Origin: Sedimentisphaerales bacterium
Lineage (GTDB): Bacteria; Planctomycetota; Phycisphaerae; Sedimentisphaerales; Anaerobacaceae
Assembly: GCA_016932835.1 (NCBI GenBank)
Contig: JAFGCD010000155.1
Coordinates: 32,299-96,298, forward strand
Length of the DNA stretch: 64,000 bases
Direction: 5' to 3'
Both the position numbers and the translations under genes were made by a program. A model generated the notes under the pieces. That model searched no databases. It had not been told where the DNA came from and was given only the letters and a program-made list of their open reading frames with translations. Shown here in pieces: positions 39,293-64,000 of the stretch (position 1 is the first letter of the stretch; each line of letters opens with the position of its first letter).

Positions 39293-39523
39293 CTATTCCT
39301 GCCTGCCAACCGAAACCGCACATCTTAACACAAAACACCCCAAAAAGCAACTTCCACTACGGATTCTCCCCCGGCCCAACCCCGGCCGACGCGCAAAAAA
39401 AGAAACGGCTCCCATTGGTACAGAGCGCTCGGGAAGGGCTATCAAAGCGCGCAGAAATGCTGCTTGTGAAGTCAAATGGGGGATAGGATGGGATCTTTGT
39501 GGACTTGGAGGGTGTTGATTTGT

Positions 39524-39529
39524 TATAAT
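39524..39529 (+). promoter_or_regulatory. Possible -10 element (TATAAT) upstream of the PEP-CTERM gene at 39609
   Basis: Exact TATAAT in an AT-rich stretch (ttgatttgttataataattgg); no convincing -35. Confidence 0.3.
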
Positions 39530-39608
39530 AATTGGGTATAAGGTACGGCGGAGACCGCGCTTCGAGGATACTGGATATCTATCACGGATTTTTTGAAAGG
39601 GGCAGAAA

Positions 39609-40262
39609 ATGACCCGGGAAAGAAGAATCATGATTCTGGGAACAGCTCTTTTATCCGGGGTGCTTCTCAGCCCGCCGCGCGTCGAGGCTGCGCTGGTAAC
39701 TATACAGATCGAGGCTGTGGTCGATTCGGTTGATGACCCCGATAACTATCTTGAAGGCCTGGTGGCTGTCGGTGATCCAATAACGGGGACGTATACTTAC
39801 GATACGGATACACCGGACTCAACGCCTGAGTATGCCACCGTTGGACGCTACGAGCACTTCGCACCGCCAGCGGGTATATATTTAACCGTAGGTGGCTTCG
39901 AATTCGAGACGGATAGTCTCAATGTGGACTTTCTTATGGCTATTGCTGATAATGTCACCTCAGGTGGCTTGCATGATAGCTATTGGATCCAGAGCTATAA
40001 CAATCTTCCACTTGTAGATGAGACTTTCATTGTGACGATTTTTTGGACGCTGAGGGATTATTCTGCCACTGCTATCTCAAGTATAGATCTTCCTATGACA
40101 GCTCCGGTTCTGGATGACTGGGGGGTTAACCTTTTGAGTTTCGGGGCCGGTACCCGGGCAAGGGGTTTTGTCATTGAGGGTCATGTGACATCTGCCATTC
40201 CCGAACCTGGCACAATGGTCTTTTTGGGCCTGGGCGGGCTGCTACTTAGAAGACGAAGGTAA
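39609..40262 (+). CDS. PEP-CTERM sorting domain protein
   Basis: Signal peptide and C-terminal AIPEPGTMVFLGLGGLLLRRRR. Confidence 0.85.
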   Translation: MTRERRIMILGTALLSGVLLSPPRVEAALVTIQIEAVVDSVDDPDNYLEGLVAVGDPITGTYTYDTDTPDSTPEYATVGRYEHFAPPAGIYLTVGGFEFETDSLNVDFLMAIADNVTSGGLHDSYWIQSYNNLPLVDETFIVTIFWTLRDYSATAISSIDLPMTAPVLDDWGVNLLSFGAGTRARGFVIEGHVTSAIPEPGTMVFLGLGGLLLRRRR

Positions 40263-40294
40263 TCAATTTCTCAGATATTTCAAGGAGGATTGAA

Positions 40295-42267
40295 ATGTTC
40301 TCACGGAAGAAACTCATCATAGGTGTGTTCTCACTTATCCTCGCCAGCGGAAATCTAATTAGCGCCAACTGGAAAGAAGACGCTTGGGTAATAGACATAT
40401 CGGGGGGAGAGGACCACACCTTGGTCCTGACGAATGATAGGGACGTCTGGGTCGGTGGAGCCAATGGGGGCGAAGCTTTTGGGTATCATTATTACGGTGT
40501 TCTCGGAACTGGGAACGCGACTTGGAGTGATTTTGAGACAAGATTTGTTAGGGTCCAAGACGGTGATATGAACACTCCCTCAGATTATCTCGAAAATATT
40601 GCTGACATCGATGCTGGATGGCAACATTCGCTTGCTCTGGACGTGAATGGATTTGTTTGGTCGTGGGGCTGGAACAGCGAAGGCCAACTCGGATACCCTC
40701 AAGTAGATTATGCAACTACTCCTGTGCAGGTTTTGCGTGGTGATCAGGACCAGGATCCTTGTGAGCCGAGCGATTATCTAAAGCACATCGTCGGTATTTC
40801 GGCGGGGCGAAGCGGCGAGTTTTCGTTGGCTATTGACGCGAACTTCGTCTATGCCTGGGGGATGAACCAGGAAGGCCAGTTAGGTAACGGCGAGCATGGT
40901 CAGAACGTGAGGGAGCTCACTGCGATAAAGGTCAAAGGCGTTGGAGGCCAAGACTTCTTAGCGAACATCATAGCGATCTCGGCCGGAGCGGATCACTCGA
41001 TGGCGCTCAAAGAGATCGATCCGTACGACGCCAATCTGGATGGCTCGGTTTATACATGGGGGGCGAACAAGTGGCCGGGAGACGGGGAATACTATCAAGC
41101 AGGCTCTGGCAAGCTCGGCAACGGGACTACCGTTGACCTGAGCGATACACCTGTTCGCGTTCTATCGGGCATGCAATACCCCGACGATCCCAACCATCTT
41201 TATCTGCGGGACATCGTTGCGATCAGCGCCGGCTGGAACCATTGTATGGCACTGGAAGAATATGACCCATGGGACCCTAATCTTAATGGTAGGGTTTATA
41301 CCTGGGGCTCCAATGGGGAAGGATATGGAGACCGCGAGGATCCATGCTCTATGGGCGGTCGGCTTGGGAACGGAACCACCACCGATAGCAATACTCCCGT
41401 ATTCGTGCTGAGGGGAGAACAAGACCCGAACGACGCGAATTCGCCCTTGCAGTATATCGCTGCGATCTCGGCGGGAGAGGCACATTCGATGGCTCTCGAC
41501 GGCAGTGGTTATGTCTATGCGTGGGGTGATAATCAGCACGGGCAGTTGGGGGACGGCACAAATGAGCAGAGGCTCACGCCGGTTCGCGTCGTCGGGCGCG
41601 ACAGGAATCGCAACGGCATCCACGAGCCAAATGAGGGCTATCTGGAGAACATCGTCGCTATCTCCGCCGGTTACTGGCACAGCCTCGCTATTGACACTAA
41701 CGGGGCCATATGGACGTGGGGCAAGGGCGCGGGAGGACGGCTGGGCTTAGCCGATAAGACTATAGACTGCAACATACCACACAGAATATCGGTAGTTTAT
41801 AATCTCACACAGGAGACATTTGCCTTTGCGATACAACCGGCTATTGATGACGCCAACGACGAAGATGTTCTTGAAGCATCGACGGGCACATATTACGAGA
41901 ATGTTGTTCTTGGGGACGAAAGCATCACGAGATGGACGACGATTTCGACATCGCAGACAATAATTCAATCGATTTTGGCGACATAATGGTCTTGTGCGAA
42001 AACTGGCTGCTTAACGGCGAATTGTGGTTGAAGTCTCTGCCTCTTACGGGCGAACCAGGCACCGAAGGGATGTGGCAGATGGCGTCTCTCTAGATCATTC
42101 CTCAAGAAACAGCCATTGCCGAAGAAAGCCCTGCCGTAGTCGAGTCCGTCAATATTGAAGGCATTCTCCAGTGGCTTTCGGGCATCTGGCTCGACCCGGA
42201 GGCAAGGCAGGTTGTGGATAGACAGGCACTGCAAGAAATCATCAAATCTCTGAGAGAGTTGGAGTAG
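40295..42267 (+). pseudogene. Decayed secreted RCC1-repeat / beta-helix / dockerin-like protein
   Basis: ORF 40295..41986 has a signal peptide and seven or so RCC1 repeats (e.g. GDNQHGQLGDGTNEQRLTPVRV), then a beta-helix start (AIQPAIDDANDEDVLEASTGTYYENVVLGDESIT) that stops abruptly. In another frame 41932..42267 encodes dockerin-like DDDFDIADNNSIDFGDIMVLCENWLLNGE, a TAG at 42091-42093, then SVNIEGILQWLSGIWLDPEARQVVDRQALQEIIKSLRELE. Confidence 0.7.
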
Positions 42268-42297
42268 CGGCGGCGAAGCGGTTTTTCAGAATGCTAT

Positions 42298-42426
42298 TCA
42301 GCCATAGAGCAGTGCCGCGATGGCAGCCAGGATGACCATCACAAGGGCCAGCCTCAAAAGACGGGCGTCGGTTGCCCTGTTGGCGGTTCTTAACTGCACA
42401 AACGCCTGCTTGTCTCTGCGGCCCAT
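42298..42426 (-). CDS. Putative 42-aa single-TM protein (below the ORF-track cutoff)
   Basis: Reverse strand reads MGRRDKQAFVQLRTANRATDARLLRLALVMVILAAIAALLYG-stop: basic N-terminus then one hydrophobic helix. Confidence 0.4.
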   Translation of the reverse strand: MGRRDKQAFVQLRTANRATDARLLRLALVMVILAAIAALLYG

Positions 42427-42552
42427 TAGGGCTACAAACGAACCAAAGTTTCAAAAGGTTCATGGGGAGGTGGGAGCTACTCTCTGTTCTTAGCAGCCCT
42501 ATCTCGGAAAAACAAATCCCCAGACCTCAGGACTAATAACGGGTAGCCTGAA

Positions 42553-54106: not shown

Positions 54107-55153
54107 ATGGAGCATGCTGTTAACAGGATAATCGATGCGAATTTCAATCGTGCTCGCGAAGCCGCACGCGTCATAGAGGAATACTGCCGATTCGCATTGA
54201 ATTGCCGCCCTCTTACCGACCGCACCAAGCAAATCCGTCATCGGCTGTGCGCATTGATCGACCGCTTCGACGACGCACGACTGATAGCCAGCAGGGATAC
54301 CGCTGCCGACGTAGGCGCTGCAAGAACAATCGGCGGACAACTCGAACGCCGCGACCTGCGAGACTGCTTCAAGGCCGGCTGTAAAAGACTAACCGAGGCC
54401 CTGCGAGCCCTCGCAGAGACAACCCAGACATTCGATGCAGAAACCGCCGCACAATTCGAAAAGCTCCGATTCGAGGCCTATGACCTCGAAAAGGACATAA
54501 CTCTCTTCGCCGAACCCGCAGAAAAATTCAAGCGCGTAAAGCTCTATGTAATCATAACCAGCGACCTGCCCGCAGAGATACTCGCCCTCACCGCCAAATG
54601 CGCCGCAGCAGGAGCCGATTGTATTCAACTCCGCGCCAAGCACCTTCCGGACGACAACCTCTATGCCGTCGCGGAACAGTTCGTGAAAATATGCGCTGAC
54701 GAAGGAGCCCTGAGCATGATAAACGACCGCCCCGATATCGCCGTCGCATCCGCCGCCGACGGAATTCATCTCGGCCAGAACGATATGCCCATCGAGCATG
54801 TCCGCAAGTTCCAACGGAAGCCTTTGATAATCGGCAAGAGCACCCACTGCAACGAACAGCTCCGCTCGGCCTGCGCCGACCTGCCGACCTACGTCGCCCT
54901 CGGACCCGTCTTCCCCACCGGCACAAAGCCAGAAACGCCCGCCGTGGGACTGAAATACGTCGCAGAAGCGACGAAAAAACTTGCCGGCACAGGTATCGAA
55001 AGCGTCGCTGTCGGCGGAATAACGCTGCAAAATGTCGCGGACGTACTCAATGCCGGTTCCGATGCCGTGGCTGTCTGCTCGGCTGTGACCGCAGCAGCCG
55101 ACCCCGCCGAAGCCTGCCGCGCGATGAAAAATAGAATTGAAGACCGCCGCTGA
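54107..55153 (+). CDS. thiE: Thiamine-phosphate synthase with N-terminal ThiD2-like domain
   Basis: N-terminal RIIDANFNRAREAARVIEEYCRFALN; C-terminal KLYVIITSD, GADCIQLRAKHL, INDRPDIAVASAADGIHLGQNDMP, AVGGITLQNVADVLNAGSDAVAVCSAV. Confidence 0.92.
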   Translation: MEHAVNRIIDANFNRAREAARVIEEYCRFALNCRPLTDRTKQIRHRLCALIDRFDDARLIASRDTAADVGAARTIGGQLERRDLRDCFKAGCKRLTEALRALAETTQTFDAETAAQFEKLRFEAYDLEKDITLFAEPAEKFKRVKLYVIITSDLPAEILALTAKCAAAGADCIQLRAKHLPDDNLYAVAEQFVKICADEGALSMINDRPDIAVASAADGIHLGQNDMPIEHVRKFQRKPLIIGKSTHCNEQLRSACADLPTYVALGPVFPTGTKPETPAVGLKYVAEATKKLAGTGIESVAVGGITLQNVADVLNAGSDAVAVCSAVTAAADPAEACRAMKNRIEDRR

Positions 55154-55163
55154 GGATATCGTC

Positions 55164-56747
55164 ATGACCCCGAAATATATACGCCTCTTGGCCTCGGCGT
55201 TATTGCCATGCCTGCTGTACTCCGCCGCTTTCGCCGACGATGAGCTTCTGCCCGAAACACCTCCGGGCAAGTACTTCAAACTCCGCCCTGCCGACCACGA
55301 AAAATCCCGAACATTCAAAACCGGCAGTCCGATCCTCGGAACGTCCTATTTCTACTGGTACGACATCTACACCAAAGCACACATCATAGACCACGACGGA
55401 ACCGACGCATTGACCACACACCCCGCCGACGCCAACGGCATAAGCTACAAACGCACCGAATGGCACGAACAGCAATTGACCGATATGATCGACGCCGGCG
55501 TCGATTTCCTCATGCCCGTATTCTGGGGCGTCCCGGGGCGATATGACGGATGGAGCTTCACCGGCCTGCCCCCACTGGTCGAAGCCCACGACCGGCTCGA
55601 AGCCAAGGGCAAAAACCCGCCCGCGATAGGACTCTTCTACGATACCTCGATACTCCAGTGGAACGACTTTCGCAGAGACTCAAGAGCCAACTACCACGTG
55701 GACCTCGCCGAAGAGTTCGGCCGCGAGTGGTTCTACACCGCCATGAGAGATTTCTTCAGCCTAATCCCGCCCGATAAATGGGCGCGCATCGACGGCAAAC
55801 CAATCGTATTTCTATACTCCGCCGGCTTCGCAAAAGGACAGGATGAAAACCAGTTTGCCTTCGTCAAGCGAAGATTCGCCCAGGACTTCGCCGTCGAACC
55901 GTTCATAGTCAAAGCGCAGGACTGGCGCGGCCCCGCCGATGCAACCTATGCCTGGGGCGGCGCCGTCAGCGGCCCCCTGATCTACAGAAAAGCCGTCGCC
56001 CTCGGCCCCGGATACGACCACAGCGCAGTGCCAGGCAGATCGCCCCTCGTAGTCGAACGCTGCGACGGAAAAACATATATCGACCGCTGGAAAAAAATCC
56101 TCCAGCTCGACCCGGAGCACCGCCCGTGGATCGTCCACGTGGAAACATGGAACGAGTGGCACGAAGGAACCGACATCGCCGACTCCCGCGAATACGGCCG
56201 GCTCTATATCGAGTTGACCCGCCTCTTCTCCGACCTCTGGCGCCGGCGAACGCACCTGCGCCTGCCGTCCTCATATCTCGGCAGCGACCGGATCCGCTGG
56301 GAACCCGACAAACCGGAAGGCCTGAGCATTAGACCGCCCGACGGCGACGGAGCCTGGAAAAAAATCAGGATCGGCGACCTCGATGCGGTGACATCCGCCC
56401 CGAATCCCAGCCTGCAGGCGGGCGGACGATACCTCTACTTCGATGTCGATGACGCCTTCGCCTTCGGTCTTTATGATAAGACCGTCGAAGTCGAAGTCAC
56501 CTTCCGCGATGCCGGCTGCTCGGCCTTCCTCTTGGAGTATGACAGTTCCAACCCCGCAGAAGGCGTCGGCGAAGGCGCATTCAGGCCTGTTGGAAATTTC
56601 AAAATAGGCGACACAGGCCGATGGAAAACCGCCAAATTCACCCTCCCCCAATGCCGCTTCATGAACCGCGCCAACGGAGCCGACTTCAGGCTCGCGATTT
56701 TCGGCGGGGAGTTGACCGTCAGCCGGGTCACGCTGACCAGACAATAA
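55164..56747 (+). CDS. Secreted glycoside-hydrolase-like protein (DUF5010-like)
   Basis: Start set at MTPKYIRLLASALLPCLLYSAAFADD; GTSYFYWYDIYTKAHIIDHDGTDALTTHP, MIDAGVDFLMPVFWGVP, VETWNEWHEGTDIADSREYG. Confidence 0.7.
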   Translation: MTPKYIRLLASALLPCLLYSAAFADDELLPETPPGKYFKLRPADHEKSRTFKTGSPILGTSYFYWYDIYTKAHIIDHDGTDALTTHPADANGISYKRTEWHEQQLTDMIDAGVDFLMPVFWGVPGRYDGWSFTGLPPLVEAHDRLEAKGKNPPAIGLFYDTSILQWNDFRRDSRANYHVDLAEEFGREWFYTAMRDFFSLIPPDKWARIDGKPIVFLYSAGFAKGQDENQFAFVKRRFAQDFAVEPFIVKAQDWRGPADATYAWGGAVSGPLIYRKAVALGPGYDHSAVPGRSPLVVERCDGKTYIDRWKKILQLDPEHRPWIVHVETWNEWHEGTDIADSREYGRLYIELTRLFSDLWRRRTHLRLPSSYLGSDRIRWEPDKPEGLSIRPPDGDGAWKKIRIGDLDAVTSAPNPSLQAGGRYLYFDVDDAFAFGLYDKTVEVEVTFRDAGCSAFLLEYDSSNPAEGVGEGAFRPVGNFKIGDTGRWKTAKFTLPQCRFMNRANGADFRLAIFGGELTVSRVTLTRQ

Positions 56748-56776
56748 ACCCGACTATCGATTCGAAAGGACCGCCC

Positions 56777-58381
56777 ATGATGCCGTCAAAAATCCTCAAA
56801 TACGCAGTGACGCTCTCGCTCCTGCTGCCGCTGTCCGCCCGGGCCGAATCCCTCTGGGATACCGCGAAAGCCAACCGCAAGCTCCTCAAAATTTCCACGC
56901 TCTTTACCGCCCATAATGTCCGCGACTATCTGGCCGGCGAAGACGGAACTAAAAACGCCGTAACCTGGTGTAAAGACACCGGCGTCACTCATGTCTTCAT
57001 AGAAACCTTCAGGGATAACTACACCGCAGAACGCCAAACTCTCGAAGCCGCAAAAAAAAGATTCTTCGCAGAGGGCTTCGAGGTCTCAGGCTGCGTCACC
57101 CCCACGCGCGTCGGAAAAATCTCTACAGGTTGGAACGTCATCTCCTGCTACACCGATGAGAAAACGCAAGCCGAGCTCAAACGAATATTCGAGTACACCG
57201 CATCGATCTTCGACGAGATTATGATAGACGATTTCCTCTTCACCGACTGCCAGTGCGACCAGTGCAAAGCCGCAAAGGGCGAGCAGCCGTGGGCACAGTA
57301 TCGCTGCGAGCTCATGGCAGGAAAAGTCAGCCGCGAGCTTATCCTCGACGCAGCCAAAGCCGTAAACCCCAACGCTAAGATAATCATCAAGTACCCCCAG
57401 TGGTACGACAACTTCCACAACCGAGGTTACGAAGTCGTCCGCCAGTCCGCAGACTACGACAAGACATGGGTCGGAACCGAAACGCGAAACTTCGAAGACC
57501 CCCGATGGGGCGGAAAAGTCCAGTACGAAGCATACTATATCATGCGCTGGCTCGGCGAAATAGGAGGGCCAAAGACCGGCGGCGGATGGTTCGACCCCTA
57601 CGGAACAACGGAAAACACCTACCTCGAACAGGCCCGCCAGACCGTCCTCGCGGACGCAAAAGAAATGCTGCTCTTCTGCTACGGCTCGCTGCAGAACCAG
57701 ACCGGCCCGGCCAACGTCCGCGCCCTCCGCAGAGAGATACCCGGCCTTCTAAAGCTCGCCCAAATCGTCCGCGGAAAACCAATCAAGGGCATAATGGCCG
57801 CAAAACCACCCAACAGCGACGGTGCCGGGGAGCAATACGTCTATGACTTCGTCGGAATGCTTGGCCTGCCCCTCGTGCCAACCGCAACAATCGATACCGA
57901 CGCAAAGGCTGCCTTCTTCCCTGTCCATTCGCTCAAAGATCCCAAGTTCAAAACCAAGCTCCGCACAATGACCGCCGCAGCAAAGCCCCTCCTGATAACC
58001 GACACCCTCGCCGAACGGCTCGACAAAACCGGCCTCGACAAACCGAATGTCACCATCCTCGAAGTGGCCGGCGACCCGAAAAATCTCCTCAAGCTCTCAA
58101 GGCAGCAGCTCCGCCCCATCCGCGAAAAACTGCTCGCCCCCTTTGCAGTGAAATTCGACGCCCCCAACAAGGTGGCCCTCTATCTGATCGGCGATAATTG
58201 CGCCGTCGTCGAAAACTTTAACGATGAGCCTGTTGACGCCGTCCTCGAATTGCCCCAGCCGGCCAACGCGAGAAAAACCCTAATCCTTGGCATCGACGGC
58301 GAAGTCGATATGAAAACCGCAGGGGCGAAAGTCGAATTCACAAAAATTACCCCGCGAACACTCGTTGTAATTGAGTATTAG
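56777..58381 (+). CDS. Secreted TIM-barrel-like protein, putative glycan-active, unknown
   Basis: Start set at MMPSKILKYAVTLSLLLPLSARAESLW; FDEIMIDDFLFTDCQCDQCK and NAKIIIKYPQWYDNFHNRGYE suggest a hydrolase barrel. Confidence 0.6.
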   Translation: MMPSKILKYAVTLSLLLPLSARAESLWDTAKANRKLLKISTLFTAHNVRDYLAGEDGTKNAVTWCKDTGVTHVFIETFRDNYTAERQTLEAAKKRFFAEGFEVSGCVTPTRVGKISTGWNVISCYTDEKTQAELKRIFEYTASIFDEIMIDDFLFTDCQCDQCKAAKGEQPWAQYRCELMAGKVSRELILDAAKAVNPNAKIIIKYPQWYDNFHNRGYEVVRQSADYDKTWVGTETRNFEDPRWGGKVQYEAYYIMRWLGEIGGPKTGGGWFDPYGTTENTYLEQARQTVLADAKEMLLFCYGSLQNQTGPANVRALRREIPGLLKLAQIVRGKPIKGIMAAKPPNSDGAGEQYVYDFVGMLGLPLVPTATIDTDAKAAFFPVHSLKDPKFKTKLRTMTAAAKPLLITDTLAERLDKTGLDKPNVTILEVAGDPKNLLKLSRQQLRPIREKLLAPFAVKFDAPNKVALYLIGDNCAVVENFNDEPVDAVLELPQPANARKTLILGIDGEVDMKTAGAKVEFTKITPRTLVVIEY

Positions 58382-58477
58382 CCTTTACTCCAATACGAAA
58401 AACACTTCCGTGTCACTATGTCGCCCCGATCTGCTCCTAAGGCAGCGCAGCCTGCCCCTGAGGGGCCTGCTTCAATA

Positions 58478-58492
58478 AGTCGCGCAGCGACT
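58478..58492. terminator. Inverted repeat between convergent genes
   Basis: AGTCGC-GCA-GCGACT; nearby CCCCTGAGGGG; no T-run. Confidence 0.25.
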
Positions 58493-58561
58493 CAATATCT
58501 GTGTAGCATACAGCGGACCGTATTCCCGTTGTACCAGGTTCCTTTTGAAGCCTGCTTTCTC

Positions 58562-60241
58562 TCAGTCTTCACTGAAGCGCAGCCGGTCACACAGAAGCAC
58601 TCCGCTTTTGACGGCGACCTTGAACGAATTAGCTCCTTCGGCCAGCTTCATGCTGCCTAAGTCCGCCTCCTGCCAATCCTCCCCGCCCGCCGACGCCTTC
58701 GCTTCTTGCCCCCCGATCGAGACTTGCAGCTCAGCCGGAGCATTCACCGCCCGGATCCTTGCCGAGAGCCGGTATTCCTTTGCAGTCAGACTGTGGATTG
58801 TGTAAGCGGTCCATTCACCCGCCTCCAGCCGAATACATTGCCCCGATCGGGATCGTCTGCCCCCGCCGCCGGCGGTCGACTCCACCGGCACCGGCTCCGA
58901 AGTCCGGTAGAGTTCGGACTTTCGCTCGGCATCCTTCACAAAATACGATTTGCCCGCACCCTCATGCCCGTAGTTCTCCGCCTCCACCACTCCGGGAGCC
59001 CGGCGGAATATCGCATTGACCACGTCCTGGTGAAACACGCAGTTCTCTAACTTGACATTTTCCACTAATTCATCCAGCGCCTTTTGAGCCAGTTCCGCCG
59101 ACGGTTTGGCCTGGCCCCGAGAGAACGCCGCAATCTCATCCCACCCCGCAGGCCTCTTGACCGAGCAGGGGCCGTTGTTGGCGTCCATCTTCTTCCATGG
59201 CCAAAACGACCAGCCGATGTTATTCGCCTCGAAGTACTGGGTCGTCCCCCAGTAAATTGCATTGTCCTTTTCCCCCGTTTCTCCGACCCAGACCGGGGCG
59301 TTCAGCGTCTCTCGTCTCGAGATGTAGGAAGCAATGCCCTTGAGCTTCGTCGGCCGGTCCCAGCAGTAGTAATGGAACTGGTAGAACATGTTGTCGTCGA
59401 ATCGCTTGGTGAAGACCGACCAGTCATTAGCCCAGTCCGCCCCTTCCACTGTAATCATGTGCCGTTTATCGACCGTCCGAATGGCCTTGGTAATCCTTCG
59501 GTACAAAGGTTCGAGTTCGGCCTTGTACTTCTCAGCCGCCCCGGTTCGCTGAGGAAGAGGCTCGTTGAGAAGGTCGTAAGCCGCTACTGCCGGCTCGTTC
59601 TTATACAGATCGGCAATCTTCACCCACAGGTCGATAAGCCGCTCCTGGTTTCGCGGCTCCGTGAACAGCCCCACCTCATCATGAGGACTGTCGTCGATAT
59701 TCGTCCCCGTCTGGCCCCCCGGAGCGCCGTGCATATCGATAATGACATAAACACCGTACTTCTTGCACCATTTGACCAGATTATCCAGCAGATCGAAACC
59801 CTCGGAAACATAAACTGCGTTCTCGCCTTCTGTGAGAAAGAGCCTTGCATTCAGGGCCGGCCGAACAGAATTGAATCCCAACTCGGAAATCCGCCGGATA
59901 TCCGCTTCCGTAATGTAATTACGCCGAAATTCCCGCCAGAAGCGCTCTCCCGCCTTCTCCCCGACCATCTCCCTGACGAGGGTCTCGATTTTCCTGGGCC
60001 GGTCGCCCCGATCCCCAAACTTCCACATATATCCTTCCGGCAGAAACCAGTTGCCCAAACCCACCCCTCGCAGAAGAACCACGTTCCCGTCTTCGTCCAC
60101 CATGTCATGTTCCCGTGTCCGAAGAAAACCCGCCCCCTCCGACACTTGCCCGACCCAAACAGCCGCCAGCAGAACCGCAATAATCATCCGAATCCGCCGC
60201 TGACCTCGAATTGACCTCGTCTGAAATACGCCTTTTCTCAT
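58562..60241 (-). CDS. Glycoside hydrolase family 5-like cellulase with C-terminal carbohydrate-binding-like domain
   Basis: GVGLGNWFLPEGYMWKFG, YVIIDMHGAPGGQTG, AAYDLLNEPLPQRTG, APVWVGETGE; C-terminal CBM35-like VEAENYGHEGAGKSYF...GQCIRLEAGEWTAYTIH. Confidence 0.88.
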   Translation of the reverse strand: MRKGVFQTRSIRGQRRIRMIIAVLLAAVWVGQVSEGAGFLRTREHDMVDEDGNVVLLRGVGLGNWFLPEGYMWKFGDRGDRPRKIETLVREMVGEKAGERFWREFRRNYITEADIRRISELGFNSVRPALNARLFLTEGENAVYVSEGFDLLDNLVKWCKKYGVYVIIDMHGAPGGQTGTNIDDSPHDEVGLFTEPRNQERLIDLWVKIADLYKNEPAVAAYDLLNEPLPQRTGAAEKYKAELEPLYRRITKAIRTVDKRHMITVEGADWANDWSVFTKRFDDNMFYQFHYYCWDRPTKLKGIASYISRRETLNAPVWVGETGEKDNAIYWGTTQYFEANNIGWSFWPWKKMDANNGPCSVKRPAGWDEIAAFSRGQAKPSAELAQKALDELVENVKLENCVFHQDVVNAIFRRAPGVVEAENYGHEGAGKSYFVKDAERKSELYRTSEPVPVESTAGGGGRRSRSGQCIRLEAGEWTAYTIHSLTAKEYRLSARIRAVNAPAELQVSIGGQEAKASAGGEDWQEADLGSMKLAEGANSFKVAVKSGVLLCDRLRFSED

Positions 60242-60361: not shown

Positions 60362-60841
60362 CTAATCAGCGGCCACGATTCTGATTGCGACCGGGTTGCT
60401 CACCACCCGCACGCCTTCGAGCACATACGCCAGCCGGACCGTATGCCGGCCCGGCCGAATATCGATTCCGAATTGCCTGTCTAATTCGATTGTCACGGCG
60501 TAGTATTGCGAGCCGGGCCCTAACTTCCAGACTTGCCCTTCGGTCTTGACGTCTCTCGGCCAGCGATACCACTTCCCGTCAAACTCGATCTCCGCAAGCT
60601 CGACCTTCTGCCTGGGCCAGAATGCGAAGGTTCGCCTGCCGCGGTTGCGCAGATCGAAACTGAAGCTCAAAGTCTCGTCAGCCCGCCATGTTTGGCGCTC
60701 GACCGCAAGCCTGCATTGCAGGCCCTCAGCCGACGGCCCCCAATCCGAACTGCTCAACCCCGACAAAGACCTGCTGCACCCCGGGGCAGCCGACAAGACT
60801 GCCAACAGCCCGACCATAAGACACTTGTTAGCTGCCGTCAT
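60362..60841 (-). CDS. Small lipoprotein of unknown function
   Basis: Lipobox-like LSAAPGCS; beta-rich body LAVERQTWRADETLSFSFDLRNRGRRTFAFWPRQ. Confidence 0.65.
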   Translation of the reverse strand: MTAANKCLMVGLLAVLSAAPGCSRSLSGLSSSDWGPSAEGLQCRLAVERQTWRADETLSFSFDLRNRGRRTFAFWPRQKVELAEIEFDGKWYRWPRDVKTEGQVWKLGPGSQYYAVTIELDRQFGIDIRPGRHTVRLAYVLEGVRVVSNPVAIRIVAAD

Positions 60842-61009
60842 TCGTTGCTCCTTACCGTATTACAGGGCCATAACTCAAACCGGCCATCGCTCGCCTTGAG
60901 CAATTATACGGCTTACAGGCCAAAAGAAACCAAAAAACCCCAGGATTCCTGCGAAATCAGCTTGTAAAGAGACAGCAAATACCGCGCCGCCGAAACCCTT
61001 TTCTACGAA

Positions 61010-61424
61010 TTATCCACCAGCGGCAAAATTTGTGCCCCTCTTGCTCCAATCAAGCCTGAATTCCGGACTATTTCCCGCCCGCAACACAAAAAGAAAAGCG
61101 GATTAAACCTGTTGGATTTATCTACAAACGTAAAGCATGTACTAAGAAGGTTTTAGCGTAAAAACCACCCCCGTCCAAACGATTCGAAAAAGGGCAGCGC
61201 CGAACATTGCCTATTTTACCAAACGCCTTCGGCCATACTGTACGACACCTTTCTTGCAGACAACCGGAGTTATCAACAGGTTATCCACAACGGCTCGATG
61301 GCAGCCGAACAAGCCTTCGCGTAGTGTTGCGGCGCCGAATGAGCCGTAAGAAAGCATACAACGCCCGCAGACCGATTATTGCGCGTAAGAATCGGCACGG
61401 CAATGACCGAAAGGCTGTGGAAAA
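61010..61424. other. Candidate chromosomal replication origin (oriC)
   Basis: DnaA-box-like TTATCCACC 61010-61018, TTATCTACA 61118-61126, TTATCAACA 61270-61278, TTATCCACA 61281-61289 (consensus), TGTGGAAAA 61416-61424 (reverse, one mismatch); AT-rich stretch at 61081-61160; GC skew sign change at about 61.3 kb. Confidence 0.65.
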
Positions 61425-61566
61425 GGCAACTTTGTCGGTTGGCTCTTGTCCGCGGGGCAAGGCCGCTGTAGAATCGCAGCCTGAAGCAAACGACAGGCGA
61501 AGGGACGCTGTTTAACGGCGGCAGGATTGGTTTTCGGCTCCGCAAAAGCCGGGAAAGGATTGTGAT

Positions 61567-62526
61567 TTGGGAAAATCGTTAATCGCTATCGGCGAATCGA
61601 TTCATGCTTCGATTCCGAAGACAGGAGCCGTAATGAGGCAATTGGCCGAACTCGGCGCCGAGGCCTATTCGAAACCGAGTGACCAATTGGATTACATCAA
61701 GGACCTGATCGAATCTCAGGTCGCCGACGGCGCCGATTATATCGCAGTTAATCTGGATGCTTTCGGCGAGAGTGACCCTGCCGTTGCAGTGCAGATGATG
61801 GTCGAATACGTTCGGCTGATTCGCAGGTTCGGGCGGGGCGTGCCGGTCTGTATCGACAGCAGCGACAACAACATCCTCACAGCGGGCCTCGAAGAATGGT
61901 ACACCGGCGATCAAGCCGTGCCCCAGCCCCTGCTGAACTCGGTTAAGGATTATACGATGACGGCAATGCTGCCGCTCAAGAAGGAGTTCGACTATGCGGT
62001 GGTCGGTCTTCTGGTAAGCGAGGAGGCCGCCGCCGGGCCGGGCGACTCGCACAGCGTGGACGAATTGTATTGCCTTGCAAAGCGGATATTCGATTGTGCC
62101 GTCGGCGAGTACGGTTTCAAGGCCGGCGAGATATTCTTCGATTCGACCGTTTTTCCCCTGGCGATTGATATGCCGATGCAGCCGGGCGCAGCCGGCTATA
62201 CGTATCGAGCATTCGAGACTATAAAGAAAATCAAAAACGACCCCGCCATGGCCGGCGTGCACTGCTCGCTGGGCGTGAGCAATTGCGCGCGAGACCTGCC
62301 CGCCAGGAAGGTCGGCATCTGCAGGGCGTACGTCGCCAAGGCGATGGAGTACGGCCTGGATGCCGGCATCGTCAATACCGCTCACCACTTCGGCGAAAGC
62401 CCGGCGGCGCCCGAACTGCTCGAATTGGTCGATGCATACGCAAAGATGGACGGTTCAGCCGAAGCGATGATGCGGGCGATGGACCTTATGGGCCAATTCT
62501 GCCGGGCAAGCAGGGGGACTTCTTAG
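61567..62526 (+). CDS. Methyltetrahydrofolate:corrinoid methyltransferase-like (pterin-binding/DHPS-fold)
   Basis: LIAIGESIHASIPKTGAVMRQLAE, ADYIAVNLDAFGESDPAVAVQMM, PVCIDSSDNNILTAGLE, FFDSTVFPLAIDMPMQPGAAGYTYRAFETIKKI; TTG start. Confidence 0.8.
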   Translation: MGKSLIAIGESIHASIPKTGAVMRQLAELGAEAYSKPSDQLDYIKDLIESQVADGADYIAVNLDAFGESDPAVAVQMMVEYVRLIRRFGRGVPVCIDSSDNNILTAGLEEWYTGDQAVPQPLLNSVKDYTMTAMLPLKKEFDYAVVGLLVSEEAAAGPGDSHSVDELYCLAKRIFDCAVGEYGFKAGEIFFDSTVFPLAIDMPMQPGAAGYTYRAFETIKKIKNDPAMAGVHCSLGVSNCARDLPARKVGICRAYVAKAMEYGLDAGIVNTAHHFGESPAAPELLELVDAYAKMDGSAEAMMRAMDLMGQFCRASRGTS

Positions 62527-62539
62527 GTTCGAGTACGTC

Positions 62540-62887
62540 ATGAAGCTCAGGCGCCAGAAGGTATTGCTCTGTATCACGTTAGCGATGGCACTGCTGTGTC
62601 TCGGGTTCTTCGCCGGGCTTTATCTCGGCTCTCACATCGGCAGGTGCCGAGCTGTTGTTGATCGCCATTGGAGCGATTTCGAACAGGCCGAGGACAAAAT
62701 CGCTCTCGGCGATACCTTGTCGAATCCCTCGGTTGTTTATCGCCTGTCGATACGAGAAATATGGAAGGATCCCGATACCAAGCGTATCAAGCTGCATTTC
62801 AAGTGCGATCCTGCCAAGACCAGCGGCGAGTCGGACGGCTACGCAGTCAAGCGCGAAGACGGCAAATGGTACTACAAGATACCCTGA
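62540..62887 (+). CDS. Small membrane-anchored hypothetical protein
   Basis: N-terminal TM segment VLLCITLAMALLCLGFFAGLYLGSHIG, soluble C-terminus. Confidence 0.6.
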   Translation: MKLRRQKVLLCITLAMALLCLGFFAGLYLGSHIGRCRAVVDRHWSDFEQAEDKIALGDTLSNPSVVYRLSIREIWKDPDTKRIKLHFKCDPAKTSGESDGYAVKREDGKWYYKIP

Positions 62888-62941
62888 TCGCGGTTTAGCC
62901 ATTAGCAGGCATACCGGCATTATTGGCATCCTGAGGTAAGC

Positions 62942-63715
62942 TCACATCATCAGCAGGCTGATCGCCATTATCAACATGCCGGCGACTATTCCGCCTATTA
63001 CGAGGTGTCCGTGGCCGAACTTGTGGGCCATTGGCAGCAGTTCGTCGAGCGAGATGTATATCATAATCCCTGCTATGAATGCCAGCAGGGCCGCGAGCAG
63101 GGCGGGCGTTAAGAACGGCATGAGGATCAGATAGCCTATGATTGCCCCGACAGGCTCGGATAGGCCGGAGAGAAACGAGTAGTAGAATGCCTTATTCTTA
63201 TTGCCGGTGGCGAAGAGGATCGGGACCGAGACGGCGATTCCTTCGGGGATGTTGTGAATTGCGATTGCGATTGCGATGAATACGCCGAGCTTTGCGTCGC
63301 CGAGGGTTGCTGCGAATGTGGCCAGACCTTCGGGGAAATTGTGTATTCCGATTGCCAGTGCGGTCATCAGGCCTGTTCGCATGAGTTTGTCGGTGTCGGG
63401 GCGGTCGGCGGGGGCGTCCAGGCCGGTGAAATCGTGGGGGTTCTGCGGTTCCGGGACGAGCAGGTCTATCAGGGCTATTACGCCTATGCCGACGAAAAAT
63501 GCGACGATGGCCCATAATTCGCCGATATCCACTATTGCTTTCGGGAGCATTTCCATGAAAGAGATGTAAACCATGACCCCGGCTGAAAGGCCCAGCGAGA
63601 AGGCCAGATAGGCTATCTTCGGCTTTCGGATGAAATAGGCGATGGCGCTGCCGATGCCGGTGGACAGGCCCGCCAAGAGTGTCAGCAGTAATGCCAGAGT
63701 TACGTTTCCGTTCAT
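62942..63715 (-). CDS. zupT: ZIP family zinc transporter (ZupT-like)
   Basis: LSLGLSAGVMVYISFMEMLPKA-like TM, GIHNFPEGLATFAA, AIAIHNIPEGIAVSVPI; start set at MNGNVTLALLL. Confidence 0.93.
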   Translation of the reverse strand: MNGNVTLALLLTLLAGLSTGIGSAIAYFIRKPKIAYLAFSLGLSAGVMVYISFMEMLPKAIVDIGELWAIVAFFVGIGVIALIDLLVPEPQNPHDFTGLDAPADRPDTDKLMRTGLMTALAIGIHNFPEGLATFAATLGDAKLGVFIAIAIAIHNIPEGIAVSVPILFATGNKNKAFYYSFLSGLSEPVGAIIGYLILMPFLTPALLAALLAFIAGIMIYISLDELLPMAHKFGHGHLVIGGIVAGMLIMAISLLMM

Positions 63716-64000
63716 AATCGGTCCCCAGCAGGTGGGATTTACCCTTGCATTGTCTCGGATGTTGTTAGAGGTAGTATCGGTCATACAGCAGGTTTTGAAT
63801 CGATTATTGATGATTGATCATTAAGGCTGATCCGGCTTCGCCGCGACACGTTGGGTTTGTGTTTCCGGGGGGCAGGCGTATGTCGTATTGTCGGCGGGGC
63901 GGGATTGGATAGCGGAAAGGTAGGGATTCGGAAATTCGGGGGGAAAACGTGGAAAATCACGCTTTTTTTATTGGGGCACCCTTGATATTGGCCTAAAAAT

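Follow-up and report, generated by a model that had tools for sequence, protein, structure and literature searches.

In bacteria, the chromosomal replication origin oriC usually adjoins dnaA, although this arrangement is not universal. When only draft assemblies are available, Ori-Finder 2022 scores oriC by the skew minimum of each fragment together with clusters of DnaA boxes (PMC10225481). Boxes of this kind are not confined to origins, and in Escherichia coli DARS1, DARS2 and datA are DnaA-control loci, whose roles are to recycle, inactivate or titrate DnaA (PMC4585315). Where, then, might replication start in the planctomycetes of the order Sedimentisphaerales, for which a search of an open-access library turned up no origin study? 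This article deals with a 64,000-nucleotide stretch of DNA from a Sedimentisphaerales bacterium, referred to here as the window, which corresponds to bases 32,299–96,298 of a 96,298-base contig (JAFGCD010000155.1) in a genome of 4.16 Mb assembled in 157 contigs (GCA_016932835.1). Its intergenic portion at ~61.0–61.42 kb carries a small set of DnaA boxes, hereafter the module. No other site in the genome is as good a candidate for oriC, and both dnaA genes lie elsewhere. The probability that it is the chromosomal oriC of this uncultured Sedimentisphaerales-type planctomycete can be put at roughly one half.

Like a bacterial oriC (PMC10225481), the module is an intergenic cluster of DnaA boxes, present as a single copy and situated at an apparent origin-type skew minimum of its contig, and its tandem box pair is identical to one found beside dnaA in 12 unrelated bacteria. 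The Ori-Finder 2022 criteria would probably pick this same spot at ~61.3 kb. Unlike the usual oriC, it lies near neither dnaA nor dnaN, has three conserved boxes only, spread over ~280 bp, has relatives without a skew minimum at the module, and shows no clear DnaA-trio on inspection of the sequence beside the pair. The comparison with DARS1, DARS2 and datA (PMC4585315) is just as mixed: the module is small, non-coding and conserved, it contains three or more boxes away from dnaA, and in most relatives it is found inside a replichore, but its boxes do not appear to form a compact core, one conserved box being ~260 bp from the pair, and it holds the only tandem DnaA-box pair of the genome. A DnaA control site that is not an origin is the main rival to oriC.

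The module is made of five DnaA-like boxes (with at most one mismatch) within 415 bp, at 61,010–61,424, between flanking genes that end at 60,841 and start at 61,567 (Table 1). Its core is the 20-mer TTATCAACAGGTTATCCACA, made of two direct boxes 11 bp apart, and a search of the 4.16-Mb genome for TTATCMACA-N0-30-TTATCMACA returns this single occurrence. AT content, taken as composition only, peaks at ~0.7 around −155 to −125 relative to the pair. The central motif is possibly a site of unwinding or of regulator binding.

Table 1. Features of the module and its surroundings (window coordinates).
Feature	Coordinates	Strand	Remarks
ThiD2-ThiE fusion (thiamine phosphate synthase)	54107..55153	+	usual left neighbour in relatives; 6.1 kb away here
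Small lipoprotein-like gene	60362..60841	-	left of module; common to same-genus G001 and G002
DnaA box A, TTATCCACC	61010..61018	+	~260 bp before pair; first eight bases invariant in 33 aligned relatives
Extra DnaA-like box TTATCTACA	61118..61126	+	not conserved in relatives
Central AT-rich motif	61130..61158		inverted repeat GTAACTT...AAGTTAC in relatives, degenerate here
GC-skew changepoint	61231..61420 (best 61,319)		maximum likelihood, 2-log-unit support interval
Tandem DnaA-box pair TTATCAACA-GG-TTATCCACA	61270..61289	+	module core
DnaA-like box TTTTCCACA	61416..61424	-	same-genus G002 also has a box right of pair
Pterin-binding (methyltetrahydrofolate/corrinoid-type) methyltransferase	61567..62526	+	usual right neighbour; full-length metH instead in some relatives
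ZupT-like ZIP metal transporter	62942..63784	-	last complete gene of contig; adjoins metH in G034, methyltransferase remnant in G001

The module is conserved well beyond this genome. Of the 119 order-level relatives, 43 (39 from the same family and four from a second one) each have a single match to the pattern formed by box A, a spacer of 236–266 bp and the pair, while the reversed pattern, used as a control, occurs in none of the 119. The other 76 relatives lack the pattern, and some of them may carry diverged versions. When the relatives are aligned, three elements stand out: an invariant box A, the central AT-rich motif resembling an inverted repeat (roughly GTAACTTCTTTATT..AAA..AGTTA), and the pair. 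The 20-mer itself occurs once in each of 12 family genomes, the source genome included, and it matched 67 stretches in a collection of 84,980 species. Twenty-four of these stretches, most of which bear the label Planctomycetota, Phycisphaerae or Sedimentisphaerales, make up a planctomycete group in which a third box lies 247–271 bp upstream; among the remaining 43 loci, where dnaA genes were located with the results of a dnaA2 query, the 20-mer adjoins dnaA in 12 unrelated bacteria, at ordinary oriC positions.

In relatives (designated by G numbers) the common gene order is thiE, module, then methyltransferase or metH, all directed rightward. A role as promoter, riboswitch or leader of the methyltransferase was considered and ruled out as unlikely, because thiE and the module remain together in G003, G007 and G016, where the methyltransferase has a different location, because it is kept beside an inverted methyltransferase in G013, and because it has zero matches to Rfam families. 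In G013 thiE was not found nearby, and several other module-bearing relatives have no thiE in the stretch examined. Judged from these gene orders, the module is conserved in its own right and persists where either neighbour is lost or moved.

The earlier note on this DNA had reported an abrupt reversal of GC-skew sign at about 61.3 kb, taken from hand counts on single lines, and had read it as a replichore boundary that gene orientation does not explain. All seven of its C/G tallies proved exact on recount, and the reversal itself is borne out by 1-kb bins, by a changepoint fit and by non-coding DNA. Nearly all bins are negative over 1–61 kb and the last three (61–64 kb) are positive; the fitted step goes from ~−0.15 to ~+0.12, and the support interval for its position includes the tandem pair. 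Over the whole contig, skew is −0.111 in the first 93.6 kb and +0.12 in the final 2.7 kb. Intergenic DNA contains 80 G and 130 C to the left of the pair, against 91 G and 67 C to the right (Fisher p = 0.0002). On the left, the argument about gene orientation holds: third-position skew is −0.30 in plus-strand genes and −0.14 in minus-strand genes, which rules out a gene-strand artefact as the cause of the skew on that side. On the right, the step is partly gene-specific, because third-position skew is −0.07 in the methyltransferase versus +0.33 in the ZIP gene.

Could the end of the contig simply be a local patch of composition? The contig and the window share their end, so positive skew can be followed for no more than 2.7 kb past the flip. 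Under such an explanation, the methyltransferase, with its G-rich sense strand, and the ZIP gene, placed the opposite way, would produce a positive stretch that reverts beyond the contig and adjoins DnaA boxes by chance. The same contig does contain a patch of this size, since a ~3-kb positive island at ~39,417–42,476, covering a PEP-CTERM gene and an RCC1-repeat gene, reaches a score of 222 (the terminal segment scores 185) and reverts to negative on both sides. As this island, ~20 kb away, is no boundary, the terminal excursion by itself cannot prove that a replichore boundary is present. Relatives point the same way. In G017, third-position skew goes from −0.50 in thiE to −0.04 in the methyltransferase, the same step as here, and the short positive patch to the right of the module (~5 kb) is followed by ~30 kb that are mostly negative; a return to negative skew a few kilobases on was precisely what the earlier note had named as evidence against its reading, and it is thus found in a syntenic relative. 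Third-position skew of the methyltransferase varies little among relatives whatever its surroundings, and the ZIP gene of G001 is also strongly positive (+0.39), with genes beyond it near zero. Against a local patch, however, non-coding DNA flips exactly at the pair, and the score of the terminal segment exceeds those of all 200 block shuffles, the highest of which is 120. By our estimate, which assumes one flip per 30–50 kb, the chance of a flip falling within 100 bp of the sole box pair is ~0.5%. A local patch therefore seems quite unlikely to account for the flip.

An assembly chimera or a recent inversion with its breakpoint at ~61.3 kb would also reverse the skew. Inversions do seem frequent in these bacteria, to judge from the mosaic skew of complete relatives, and in genomes of the same genus contig ends fall near the methyltransferase. 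Gene order is nevertheless shared over the flip: G002 has the lipoprotein gene, module and methyltransferase in this order, G001 keeps the lipoprotein gene and module on the left, G034 keeps the methyltransferase and ZIP gene on the right, and the module is intact. An artefact or breakpoint of this kind is largely refuted by this shared synteny, and it was rejected as highly improbable.

The behaviour of skew in relatives bears on the choice between an origin and a DnaA control site. In ~30 module-bearing relatives G mostly exceeds C to the left as well as to the right, and the step is absent: the 250-bp flanks average +0.145 on the left and +0.160 on the right, with a rise in 17 of 32 (p = 0.41). 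No rise is seen over 15–25 kb per side in G025, G005, G013, G034 and G061, and in G061, whose genome is complete, cumulative skew followed for 200 kb each side does not reach a minimum at the module. Genes to the left of the module are mostly directed towards it in G025, G005, G017 and G020. A conserved non-origin locus binding DnaA, in the manner of DARS or datA, is the alternative: it would normally lie within one replichore with the motif strand leading, as the G-richness of that strand on both sides and the mostly co-oriented left genes suggest, and the flip would be a coincidence here. Such a locus is a possibility to be taken seriously, if not a probable one. Three observations stand against it. 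A real origin would have to lack a tandem DnaA-box pair, since the genome has only this one; the changepoint coincides with the module in the source contig with no synteny break; and unrelated bacteria have the identical pair at their oriC.

How much weight should be given to skew in these genomes? G003, G013 and G061 show several reversals per few hundred kilobases, which we read as the outcome of rearrangement or assembly error; skew is for that reason a poor witness in these genomes, and a lone reversal is no mark of a replichore boundary in the family. The skew minima of G003 and G017, considered as alternative origins, have neither a box cluster nor shared gene content. G001 provides a different kind of evidence: a block matching 7.2–10.6 kb of the window is inverted there, to the right of the methyltransferase, and its strand bias is unchanged when the block is read in its own orientation, which is what forks starting close to the module should produce. 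The replichore boundary proposed in the earlier note is therefore partly sustained: the change from negative to positive has the direction of an origin, whereas the mosaic skew of complete relatives and the ~30 relatives lacking the step weigh on the other side, together with the shortness of the right-hand segment and the reverting patch nearby.

An origin beside dnaA was set aside. The source genome has two dnaA genes, both on contigs other than that of the module (C139:9830-10312 and C143:16272-16742), nearly all relatives checked have two full-length paralogs, and in complete relatives these genes are far from the module. In the family genomes examined, neither dnaA gene has a DnaA-box cluster close by, so there is no better candidate there. 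The parS sites are less favourable to an origin at the module: their distance from it is 49, 304, 727 and 931 kb in four single-contig genomes, a variation that also suits a control locus, and the 64-kb window contains none. Most relatives carry, at one place per genome, two parS sites separated by a few hundred bases (C41:6849-7298 in the source genome), and this pair is a useful independent marker of the origin region.

For the module as oriC, then, the intergenic box cluster, its single copy in each of the genomes that carry it, the unique pair and the coincidence with the flip have to be balanced against the relatives without a step, the left genes pointing to the module, the variable parS distance and the reversion in G017. 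If this reading is right, DnaA would bind the tandem pair and box A, the AT-rich DNA between them (~61,118–61,158) would probably open, and forks would depart both ways, leaving C in excess of G to the left and G in excess of C to the right on the plus strand. A broader version, in which a three-box oriC is common to the lineage of uncultured Sedimentisphaerales and uncoupled from both dnaA paralogs and, in most species, from GC-skew polarity, is doubtful; were it true, skew-based origin calls would fail across the family, and either rearrangement would outpace skew equilibration or fork direction around the module would be asymmetric. Whichever reading holds, the module is a sequence-defined candidate origin (or DnaA control site) common to 43 genomes, and read depth from metagenomes already available offers a test of it. 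In chromosomes with such mosaic skew, a flip by itself marks an origin poorly.

Some minor observations concern the surrounding genes. In G001, a broken methyltransferase remnant lies beside the ZIP gene (contig C289, locus L208, 12658-12856), and an intact copy is found elsewhere, next to the block equivalent to 7.2–10.6 kb; remnant and copy together are a sign of duplication or inversion near the locus. A homologue of the G001 gene neighbouring ZIP was sought in the source genome as a means of extending the contig, and was not found. Between thiE and the module, the window at 55137-60241 contains genes of glycoside-hydrolase type (DUF5010/WbsX, GH5) and one gene without a Pfam match, and part of this set is common to G002 and G025.
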